Shown here in pieces: positions 22,276 to 27,262 of a DNA stretch of 64,000 nt. The stretch is taken from contig JANXEL010000069.1 in assembly GCA_025058535.1 (NCBI GenBank), positions 1-64,000 of the forward strand, written 5' to 3'. How positions within the stretch are numbered: position 1 is the first letter of the stretch; every line of letters begins with the position of its first letter. The translations under genes were made by a program, and so were the position numbers. The notes beneath the pieces were generated by a model that was not told the DNA's origin, did not search any database, and was given only the letters and a program-made list of their open reading frames with translations. The DNA comes from Ignisphaera sp. Its GTDB lineage: Archaea; Thermoproteota; Thermoprotei_A; Sulfolobales; Ignisphaeraceae.

Positions 22276-22494
22276 ATCTTACTTCCACAAAGATTCTACG
22301 AACTAATCAACTATATTAGGGGTACAGTTAATAAATTATTGATTTGTCTTGAGAATGGATAGTTATTCAAAAATGGTAAATAAAGTGATGCATTACACAT
22401 TCTAATTGAAATTAATGATTATAATTTTCGTATTGGTTTTAAACTGAATAACTCTAAATACAACTTCGCTTAGAGATTGGTCAGGCAGCACTGT

Positions 22495-23955
22495 ATGACC
22501 GATGAAAACAGTGTTTCAACAGCCAACAGTAGATACCTTAGTGAACTAGAGAAAGAGTTAGAGTTATTGTATGCTGAGAAAGGTAAGGATAGAGAAACAA
22601 AGGAGGGTAGAACTAGCAGAAAGGATTCGGGTATCGTTAGAGTGTCCACTGGAATTCCTGAACTCGATAAAGCGTTGGATGGTGGTATTCCGAAAGGTTC
22701 CTGGGTTGCTATAACGGGCGAACCTGGTACGGGTAAATCTATTCTTTGTATGCATTTTGCTTGGGCCGGACTAATTGCAGGTGACCCAGTTGTATATATA
22801 ACAACAGAGGCAGAGTTTAGGGATGTAGTTAGGCAAGCAAGGCAATTCAATGTAGATTTTGAAAGCTATAGAATATATGATATTTCAAGTCTTAAGGAGA
22901 TTAATGAAGTTCCGCAGATAGTGGTGGTGGACATTTTTGGCCTCTTAAAAATAGCCAAACAGATGAGCGAATCTGCATCTACAGACCTGGAAGGTATTAG
23001 AAGAAGAAGGTTTGCAGCGCTAGATATCCAAACACTTGTATCTGCAATTCACGAAGCGTATAAGATATTGGGAGTTCTAAGAGAGGGGGTAAAGGCTCCA
23101 TACAAGCACGTCAGATTAATTATAGATTCGTTAAGTGCTTTTTGGGCAGACAGACCTGCTATGGCCAGGAAATATAGCTATGATTTAAAAATATCCACAC
23201 ACAGAGAGAATGTAACAGCATATCTTGTGAGTCAGTATGCTATGACTACTAAAAGTGTGGATTACAGAACACCAATTGTAGTTAGATACGATGATACAAT
23301 AGAAGTTCGAGAAATAGGCAGTTTTGTGGATCAGTTCTTTAATGAAAGTGAGGAGGGGATTAGGCTTGTTAAAACCCCTATGTATACTCTTTCAGTAAAT
23401 CCAATAACTCTTAAAGTTGAATGGAAGCCTATAAAGGCTGTATCGAGGCATAGAGAGTCCAGAAATCTATTAAGAATAGAATTAGAGGGTGGTCGAAATG
23501 TTGCAGTCACCCAAGATCACAGTATCTATATTTTGAGCGAAGACGGTATCAAGCCAATTAAAGGAAGCAAAGTAAGAGAGGACTGTATTCCCGTATTGAT
23601 GCAGGAGAATATTGAGAAACTCAATGCTGATTTTAAACTCGGTTTTGCAAAAGTAAAAAGAATAGGGGTAGAGAGTCCTAGTGCGCCCTATGTATATGAC
23701 CTTTCTGTAGATTTATATGAGAATTTTATTGCTGGTATAGGCTGGATTCTAGTGCATAACAGCACTTTTGGATTTGGACTAGAACACATTGCAGATGGTG
23801 TGCTACATCTATGGATGGAAGAGGTGGAGAAAAGTAAGGAGATTAAAAGATATATGATTATAAAGAAGATGAGAATGACCAACCATGTTAGAACAGCTTT
23901 TAGAATAGAAATAGAGCCTAGTAGAGGTTTTGTACTATATCCATTAACTAGCTAG
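22495..23955 (+). CDS. RadA/KaiC-like RecA-family ATPase (aRadC type) with an in-frame mini-intein
   Basis: 486 residues from ATG 22495 (TTG 22477 would lie before the start predicted from TATA at 22452-22460). After intein removal the mature protein is 317 residues. 'VSTGIPELDKALDGGIPKGS' (about 50-69) and Walker A GEPGTGKS (75-82) place it in the RadA/KaiC group; Walker B is 'RLIIDSLSAFW'. The C-terminal RecA core resumes after the intein as STFGFGLEHIADGVL. Archaeal RadA paralogues modulate RadA recombinase. The intein splits the L2-like loop after Q-Y-A-M-T-T-K, so splicing is needed for activity. Not in an operon; its 3' end overlaps the next gene by 4 bp. Confidence 0.88.
   Translation: MTDENSVSTANSRYLSELEKELELLYAEKGKDRETKEGRTSRKDSGIVRVSTGIPELDKALDGGIPKGSWVAITGEPGTGKSILCMHFAWAGLIAGDPVVYITTEAEFRDVVRQARQFNVDFESYRIYDISSLKEINEVPQIVVVDIFGLLKIAKQMSESASTDLEGIRRRRFAALDIQTLVSAIHEAYKILGVLREGVKAPYKHVRLIIDSLSAFWADRPAMARKYSYDLKISTHRENVTAYLVSQYAMTTKSVDYRTPIVVRYDDTIEVREIGSFVDQFFNESEEGIRLVKTPMYTLSVNPITLKVEWKPIKAVSRHRESRNLLRIELEGGRNVAVTQDHSIYILSEDGIKPIKGSKVREDCIPVLMQENIEKLNADFKLGFAKVKRIGVESPSAPYVYDLSVDLYENFIAGIGWILVHNSTFGFGLEHIADGVLHLWMEEVEKSKEIKRYMIIKKMRMTNHVRTAFRIEIEPSRGFVLYPLTS
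23254..23760 (+). other. Mini-intein of 169 residues, Ser1 type, no homing endonuclease
   Basis: Residues S254-N422 of the host protein. Block A begins Ser-V-D-Y-R-T-P-I-V-V with Ser1 in place of the common Cys1. Block B is VAVTQDHSIYIL with the T-x-x-H motif. Block F is VYDLSVDLYENFIAG, where the usual His before N-F is Glu. Block G is GWILVHN with Ser as +1 residue. There is no room for LAGLIDADG blocks C-E. Removing it joins T-T-K to S-T-F-G-F-G, a continuous RecA-fold sequence, which fixes both borders. Confidence 0.9.
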
Positions 23956-24751: not shown

Positions 24752-26473
24752 ATGCTTGACAGCATGGCATTAAAATACTATAGGTTTCTGCGCATACCTT
24801 CAAAGATAGCTAGGCATGTGTCCCTTCTGTACCCACTATACATCCTACTTATTGTCCTCATAGATTTACTATCGTGCTCCATTAAAAATCAGTGTGGTAC
24901 GCCCATATTTTTTGCTGCTGTGATAATCCATGTACTCCATTTTTCTGCTATACCACTGGTGATAAAGTTTCTAGTCCCATATATGAGGAGGAGACAGATA
25001 CTAAATATGGTAATATTTTCAACAGTGCCAGGAGTTTTATTGGAGTTCTTAGGTTCGCTTATCGGAGTATACGGTATGATATATACAGTTCTCCCCTTAA
25101 TCGGCTTGCTAATCCTACGAGGTTTAATAAACTCTAAAAAGAGGATTATAATAATGTTCTTCATATTTACATTACTAGAAGCTCTATTCATAGTTTTCGT
25201 TGATAGGTTTGGTGCAGCAAATATCTTTGTTCGAACATGTATGCTAATATTTGTGTCAGTATTGTCAATACATCTCAATAACATTCTTAGCTCGTACAAA
25301 TGGGAGGTTGATGTATTTGAGCTATCTAGTGCGTGGGCTAAATACATGTTCACTGGAATAGATGATGATATTGAGTTTCAAATAAGCAAACTTAAAGTGG
25401 AGAGAGACATTAAAGTGCACTCAATAATTTTTCGTAGAAGAGATGATACTATAGCAATGATAGTGCCGGGTGTGCACTTCGGGCCATTCAAAACATTAGG
25501 AAGCACTCTCCTTCCTCACTATCTCGATGAAATGCTAAATTCTAAGGGAATCAAAACATTTGTTTTACACGGCGCGGGTTCTCATGAATTGGATCTCATA
25601 AACAAAAATGAGGCAAAGAAACTTGCAGGTGAAATAGTTGACAAAATATTTAACAATTTCAGCTTAAGTGAAAAATACGAAGTTATATATGAACCTTTCA
25701 GAGTATACGACGAGTTTTATGAAGCATTCGTTATTCAGACTAGCAATTTAGCAATTATAGCTATATCATCGCCTATAATAGGCGGTGATGACATACCATA
25801 CGAAGTTCAGAAACACACTGAAGAAATTACACCTATTTATGGTTTCAAGCACGGTGTTATCATTGATTGTCATAACATTGAAGGATTGCGTGTAGCTGAT
25901 CCAAACAAATTTAACCCTATAGTTATGGCATCAATTTCAATTCGTAAAAAAGCTTGTAGTAGTTTTAAAACAGGTTACGGAGAATCTTCAGTGTATGGAA
26001 ACGTCAGAGGGCTTTGCATAAATAAAATAAAAGTTTTAACTATTGAGTGTGATGATGCAAAATATTCACTAATATATCTTTATGGAAACAATGCAAAGAT
26101 AGGTTTGAGGGATTTGTTGAGAAGAATTGCAATAAATAATGGAATAAGAGATGCGGAAGTAATAACTTTAGATGATCACAGCTGTGCTGGAACAGTATTT
26201 GATTCGCCTTACTATGCAGTCGAAGTTAATGAAAATATCGTAAGAGCGGTTGAAAGAGCCCTCAGGGCATCCATTACTGATCTTTCAGAAACTAAGGTAT
26301 CTCTGGTAACACACAATAGCAAAGTGAATGTGGTTGGTCTAAAAATATTTGAACTATTAGAGTTAGCAAAACAGGTAGGAGGCTTTCTAGCTAGATACCT
26401 TAAGTTGGTTTTAATTGTAATTCATATAGCACTTCTTGCTACGATATTATTATTAAATCTACTTTCAATTTAA
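24752..26473 (+). CDS. DUF2070 membrane protein
   Basis: 573 residues: five or six TM helices in the first 180 residues, a long soluble domain (about 190-540) and a TM helix at the very end (about 550-570). The soluble domain carries 'AMIVPGVHFGPFKTLGSTLL', the DUF2070 signature (V-P-G-V-H-x-G-P), with 'HGAGSHELDL' after it. The family is archaeal; function unknown. The His/Asp/Ser-rich core could bind a metal. It ends 96 bp before cdvA, which has its own TATA, so co-transcription is not required. Confidence 0.85.
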   Translation: MLDSMALKYYRFLRIPSKIARHVSLLYPLYILLIVLIDLLSCSIKNQCGTPIFFAAVIIHVLHFSAIPLVIKFLVPYMRRRQILNMVIFSTVPGVLLEFLGSLIGVYGMIYTVLPLIGLLILRGLINSKKRIIIMFFIFTLLEALFIVFVDRFGAANIFVRTCMLIFVSVLSIHLNNILSSYKWEVDVFELSSAWAKYMFTGIDDDIEFQISKLKVERDIKVHSIIFRRRDDTIAMIVPGVHFGPFKTLGSTLLPHYLDEMLNSKGIKTFVLHGAGSHELDLINKNEAKKLAGEIVDKIFNNFSLSEKYEVIYEPFRVYDEFYEAFVIQTSNLAIIAISSPIIGGDDIPYEVQKHTEEITPIYGFKHGVIIDCHNIEGLRVADPNKFNPIVMASISIRKKACSSFKTGYGESSVYGNVRGLCINKIKVLTIECDDAKYSLIYLYGNNAKIGLRDLLRRIAINNGIRDAEVITLDDHSCAGTVFDSPYYAVEVNENIVRAVERALRASITDLSETKVSLVTHNSKVNVVGLKIFELLELAKQVGGFLARYLKLVLIVIHIALLATILLLNLLSI

Positions 26474-26569: not shown

Positions 26570-27262
26570 ATGGATATAGCTATAGAGGGTGTAGCTCCGT
26601 ACCTCGGTCAGACAGTAGTTGATTTATATGGAAGGAAGGTAGGTATACTGGTAGGGATATATAGTGACGTCGATGGAAAGGTTTCGTCATTTGAAATAAT
26701 GACTAATGATGCTTCTTATGAAACCATTACAGCGGAGAGATTTGAGCGTGATGCCGATGGGTTTAAGCTTCTACCTGAATGGCTTGTTGAAGCTAAAAAA
26801 CTTGAGAGGAAGCTAGACATCCTAAGAAAGAGATTCAAGTCCATGGAGGAGCTATCCAAAAAGAACCAGATACCACAGCATGCATATAGAGAATTAAAGG
26901 AAAGGTACTCAAAGGATTTGGATAAGCTGAGGATTGAGATAAAGAATTTGAAAGATATTTTGAGGAAAAGAACATACGAGCTGGAAAACTTTGTGCTGCA
27001 TATTGAAAAGGCTTTTACACACCTTCTAATAAGTTATACATCAGGCGAGCTACCGGAGAACGGCTTTAAAGTATCTGCAGAGTGTATGAGATCAGCTAAG
27101 CAGGCTGCACTAGACGAGAAAAAGGATGTGGAAAAGCACATGGCCCTCATCGATAAGCTCGAACAGGAGTTAGCAGCAATAACGCAACCACAAGAAGAAA
27201 TACAAATCACCTCGCCAACAGCAGTGCAGCAGCCGATAGCAGTTAAAGTAGTTACAGGTTAG
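26570..27262 (+). CDS. cdvA: CdvA, membrane-binding cell-division protein
   Basis: 230 residues, first gene of the crenarchaeal cdv operon. An N-terminal PRC-barrel-like domain (about 8-70, 'LYGRKVGILVGIYSDVDGKV') is followed by a long coiled coil (about 75-205) and a Pro/Gln/Thr-rich tail ending in a short hydrophobic peptide (Q-P-I-A-V-K-V-V-T) suited to bind the CdvB winged helix. CdvA forms the initial ring at mid-cell and recruits CdvB. TATA box CTTTTATAG at 26523-26531. Length and domain order are normal for the family. Confidence 0.95.
   Translation: MDIAIEGVAPYLGQTVVDLYGRKVGILVGIYSDVDGKVSSFEIMTNDASYETITAERFERDADGFKLLPEWLVEAKKLERKLDILRKRFKSMEELSKKNQIPQHAYRELKERYSKDLDKLRIEIKNLKDILRKRTYELENFVLHIEKAFTHLLISYTSGELPENGFKVSAECMRSAKQAALDEKKDVEKHMALIDKLEQELAAITQPQEEIQITSPTAVQQPIAVKVVTG

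Follow-up and report, generated by a model that had tools for sequence, protein, structure and literature searches.

A Ser1 mini-intein at a recurrently invaded site of a RadA-paralogue ATPase gene in Ignisphaera sp.

Results

An ATPase gene interrupted in frame

The window, which is the whole stretch of 64,000 nucleotides from the hot-spring archaeon Ignisphaera sp. analyzed here, carries an open reading frame of 486 residues at positions 22495-23955 of the forward strand, the strand on which all parts of this gene described below lie. The frame ends with the host stop codon at 23953-23955, and its start is more likely the ATG at 22495 than the alternative TTG at 22477. The N-extein (22495..23253) encodes a RecA-fold ATPase of the KaiC_arch_4 type (TIGR03881; PF06745, E = 3e-40) with the Walker A sequence GEPGTGKS, reaches the junction with SQYAMTTK, and is 68-79% identical to the orthologues of the genus. 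The C-extein, beginning with STFGFGLEHIADG and located at 23761..23952, is 69-82% identical to the intein-free orthologues of the genus. Counted from the ATG, the flanks joined without the intervening segment comprise 317 residues, in agreement with the spliced length given in an earlier, sequence-only reading of this DNA.

The same reading had called the host "RadA/KaiC-like", of which the assignment to the RadA paralogues was upheld and the family could be sharpened, as the joined flanks matched the NCBIfam model TIGR03881 KaiC_arch_4 with 304.6 bits against a curated cut-off of 247.8. The closest solved relative is the RadA paralogue SSO2452, to the structure of which (PDB 2W0M) an intein-free orthologue was matched with E = 6.8e-54. 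For SSO2452, which comes from Sulfolobus, ssDNA binding and inhibition of D-loop formation were reported (PMC8708640). The group containing the window's ATPase is about 40% identical to the SSO2452-like group, and its kinship with this type of anti-recombinase is to be read as homology only. Near the ATPase gene, the window also contains a gene for a DUF2070 membrane protein (24752-26473) and, downstream, a CdvA-like gene (archaeal cell division) at 26570-27262.

Motifs and predicted fold of the insert

The segment at 23254..23760 encodes 169 residues running from Ser1 to His168-Asn169 (SVDYRTPIVV...ENFIAGIGWILVHN), flanked by SQYAMTTK and STFGFGLEHIADG. It was recognized by intein profiles (PF14890, TIGR01445, TIGR01443), with a Pfam Intein_splicing match of E = 7e-14, above the curated cut-off, and NCBIfam scores of 43.7 bits for intein_Nterm (cut-off 24.5) and 27.3 bits for intein_Cterm (cut-off 15.6). 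The first nucleophile of block A, Ser1 (23254..23256), is invariant in 14 of 14 copies. Block B reads T-Q-D-H at residues 86-89 (TxxH; 23509..23520), with D88 and H89 invariant in 12 of 12 mini-inteins, and block F contains V-Y-D at residues 147-149 (23692..23700), including the catalytic Asp149, which is likewise invariant in all 12. The usual position of the block F His is occupied by Glu156 (23719..23721); 11 of the 12 copies have Glu there, and the remaining one has Gln. Block G, His168-Asn169 (23755..23760), is invariant, and the second nucleophile, Ser+1 (23761..23763), is a native host residue found in all intein-bearing alleles; the intein-free alleles of the genus have it as well.

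Ser1, the TxxH motif, the block F Asp, and a terminal HN followed by Ser+1 constitute class 1 features, and this set fits the published class 1 motifs (PMC7664689, PMC10663303); the block F His, a feature common among inteins but not universal, was not taken as required. Class 3, defined by the WCT motif, was rejected since Ser1 is present and block F contains no Cys. A Pfam profile search of the 169 residues produced no LAGLIDADG match. Thus, Ser1, the Glu at the block F position, and the absence of an endonuclease are as claimed earlier, whereas the description of the two residues as oddities was not sustained, since Ser1 is found in every copy, Glu156 in nearly all mini-inteins, and Glu also in both TFIIB inteins discussed below.

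AlphaFold2 modeling with 12 homologues predicted a HINT fold (pLDDT 95). The top Foldseek match of this model was the Mvu TFIIB intein (E = 5e-14, TM 0.85 by query length); the Mja TFIIB intein had a TM of 0.68 (query length), and PhoRadA was among the further intein matches. Profiles, AlphaFold with Foldseek, and comparative genomics concurred, confirming the intein identity.

The only Cys of the intein, residue 112, lies outside the motifs, is not conserved, and is missing even from a copy with 72% identity. The whole precursor contains just two Cys residues, at positions 85 and 364 when counted from the ATG, and both are non-catalytic. Redox-controlled splicing, which had been raised in the sequence-only reading and is known for inteins with Cys nucleophiles, is consequently very unlikely, since both nucleophiles (Ser1 and Ser+1) are serines. 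A redox switch acting through a catalytic Cys was rejected on the same grounds.

The insertion site

In the host, the intein separates the SQ motif from the FGxGxEHxADG motif and splits a motif that is conserved across the whole host family. The interrupted stretch aligns with TAERTEEYG-PIARYGVEE of KaiC CI, and by the RecA fold we take it to be the L2-equivalent region. Accordingly, the earlier label "L2-like loop" is reasonable as a description drawn from the sequence alignment with KaiC CI. The AlphaFold2 model of the whole precursor had a pLDDT of 81 with values below 50 at both junctions, which is too weak to tell where the intein lies with respect to the ATP site.

Distribution and conservation of the intein

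The sequence-only reading had proposed a check for intein-free relatives, and an empty allele, in which TTK/R is followed by STFGFG at the exact codon, was found in 9 of the 11 genus genomes. The gene is interrupted only in the window's genome and in G008, the intein of which is 72% identical to that of the window. The insertion between TTK and STFGFG of a 169-residue intein is therefore borne out by the reading frame, the intein profiles, the predicted fold, and the empty alleles. Across the class, a Ser1 intein occupies the identical codon in 10 of the 40 genomes with an orthologue; in G160, counted separately, an intein begins at the same codon and the contig ends inside it. Parsimony on the host tree required at least five changes of intein gain or loss.

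Nine positions are invariant across the 12 mini-inteins (S1, D88, H89, V147, Y148, D149, N157, H168, and N169), and these include the catalytic set even though identity to the window's intein is no more than 25-37% in most of the sequences. The comparison of the window with G008 gave a pN/pS of 0.27 in the intein, as against 0.16 in the extein (Nei-Gojobori, with synonymous sites near saturation), indicating purifying selection on the intein, as expected if splicing is obligatory.

Self-excision is read here from sequence and predicted fold, and the insert could instead be a non-splicing structural domain or a dead HINT domain. We consider this very improbable, because all catalytic residues are invariant despite great divergence, and because the insert is precise, in frame, missing from most orthologues, and splits a family-conserved motif. 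Its structural-domain form was ruled out by the empty alleles together with the invariant catalytic residues.

The G181 intein is 52% identical to that of the window and 43% identical to that of G180, the sister of G181 by host gene, while the respective host proteins are 64% and 86% identical. The intein tree was poorly resolved, and the AU test did not reject host-linked inheritance of the intein within one clade (p = 0.27-0.35); therefore, the conflict of G181 with the host tree is not claimed as proof of transfer, and horizontal movement is no more than suggested. Beyond the window's genome, the intein is a recurrent invader of this host site across Thermoproteota.

Intein profile models detected no other intein in the window's genome. 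A second intein-like N-terminus (37% identity) was seen in the sister genome G008 (C1:232185-232526) within a 1014-aa frame, five viral contigs (L150-L154) encode distant intein relatives only (24-63% identity over parts), and a stop-masked hmmscan of L041 produced no match.

Endonuclease-bearing relatives

In G041, which belongs to another family of the same order, an SSO2452-like gene is interrupted at the same codon by an intein of 468 aa (L116:1531-2934). This intein matched LAGLIDADG_3 with E = 8e-6, and its motif acids are altered to read SAG and GGG, indicating a degenerate endonuclease. An SSO2452-like gene of G517, from the same phylum, contains a 565-aa intein (L147:1618-3312) positioned one codon upstream (TT|S...HN|SEAFGWG), with a LAGLIDADG_3 match of E = 1e-11, intact SEG and GDG motifs, and hence an apparently intact endonuclease, as well as a winged-helix segment scoring below its Pfam cut-off. 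Mini-inteins occupy this neighboring site in G318 and G363. Taken with the empty alleles, these copies show one position around which uninterrupted genes occur alongside mini-inteins and inteins whose endonuclease is degenerate or apparently active, although the G517 intein, being one codon away, may represent a separate invasion.

Discussion

Proposed splicing and its closest known counterparts

We propose, with a probability of about 95%, that the insert is a class 1 mini-intein in a KaiC_arch_4 ATPase (an SSO2452-like RadA paralogue), that it descends from a homing intein, and that it splices to yield the 317-residue protein. Ser1 would attack the Lys-Ser bond in an N to O shift aided by TQDH and Asp149, after which the host Ser+1 would receive the N-extein by transesterification. 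Cyclization of Asn169 would be aided by His168 and by Glu156, which stands where a His is usual. An O to N shift would then produce a seamless ATPase. The ancestor would have been an endonuclease-bearing intein that homed into the host site, with the endonuclease subsequently lost in the window's copy; under this proposal, the splicing domain persists because its removal is needed for a working host protein. Actual splicing, inactivity of the precursor, and past homing are what we infer from these data.

The nearest solved inteins, by both sequence and fold, are the Mja and Mvu TFIIB inteins (PDB 5O9J and 5O9I; E = 1.4e-19 and 6.7e-17), which share the VDY block A, the TxxH motif, the block F Glu, and the HN end, but reside in TFIIB and are about 30% identical to the window's intein. 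In these two, the endonuclease domain was reported to be needed for efficient splicing, with its deletion resulting in poor splicing (PMC6801210), so that slow splicing would be conceivable for a mini-intein related to them. The RadA inteins of Pyrococcus horikoshii and Thermococcus sibiricus are likewise class 1 mini-inteins in a RecA-fold recombination ATPase of hyperthermophiles. However, they interrupt the P-loop of RadA proper, have Cys nucleophiles and a block F His, and are 15-16% identical over the fold. Further counterparts, which came to light in this analysis, are the KaiC_arch_4-site inteins of G008, G016, G181, G177, G175, G180, G163, G171, G172, and G041, which share the codon, Ser1, HN, and Ser+1 and are 25-72% identical to that of the window, although G041 retains its degenerate endonuclease.

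By analogy with PhoRadA, which in its native exteins requires about 75°C or ssDNA for splicing (PMC5790916), the intein might act as a conditional switch, with the native exteins keeping the ATPase unspliced and inactive until heat or ssDNA frees splicing; temperature-conditional splicing had also been raised in the sequence-only reading. The host is a RadA paralogue in a hyperthermophile lineage, ssDNA binding was reported for SSO2452 (PMC8708640), the site lies within a functional loop, and the intein is under purifying selection, all of which would agree with such a role. Nevertheless, we consider it clearly unlikely: most relatives lack the intein, so that the host can function without a switch; any intein obliged to splice should show purifying selection; and the site is distinct from that of the known RadA intein in the P-loop (PMC5790916), a point on which the sequence-only reading is supported.

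While the intein type is well known, the host protein and the insertion site appear undescribed in the open literature searched, in which no prior link of inteins to KaiC was found and the single paper mentioning both appears to concern Y-family DNA polymerases (InBase and subscription papers lay outside the scope of the search). The locus adds an apparently new RecA-superfamily host and insertion site to the inteins of recombination ATPases. The alleles form a natural series, from empty through mini-inteins to inteins with a degenerate endonuclease and inteins that bear one, and should help in examining the homing cycle and in asking if a RadA paralogue is gated by splicing. Glu as a stable alternative at the block F His position bears on how Asn cyclization is assisted.

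Host alleles at the +1 position

Within the intein-rich clade, to which 7 of the 10 interrupted genes belong, none of the six intein-free orthologues has the +1 Ser: five carry Ala (G018, L110; G038, L112; G179, L111; G178, L115; G047, L016) and one carries Gly (G176, L109). Outside this clade, the +1 Ser was kept in all 23 intein-free genes. The contrast (6/6 versus 0/23; Fisher p = 2e-6, ignoring kinship) amounts to about three independent changes and was spotted post hoc. Since splicing needs Ser, Cys, or Thr at +1, the Ala and Gly alleles could not host the intein, and by their sequence they fit the expectation for intein-resistant alleles, for which they are candidates. A recurrently targeted codon and hosts made immune by +1 Ser replacement, combined with a heat- or ssDNA-gated release of an anti-recombinase, would amount to an arms race between host and intein at a single codon, a tentative idea that we regard as unlikely.

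The interrupted gene of G181 (L033) differs from its intein-free sisters (L110-L112) by 0.53-0.73 differences per codon within 15 codons of the site, as compared with 0.15-0.28 at more than 60 codons upstream; this pattern was also seen post hoc, and values of about 0.6 recur at the far C-terminus. The peak near the site could reflect co-conversion.
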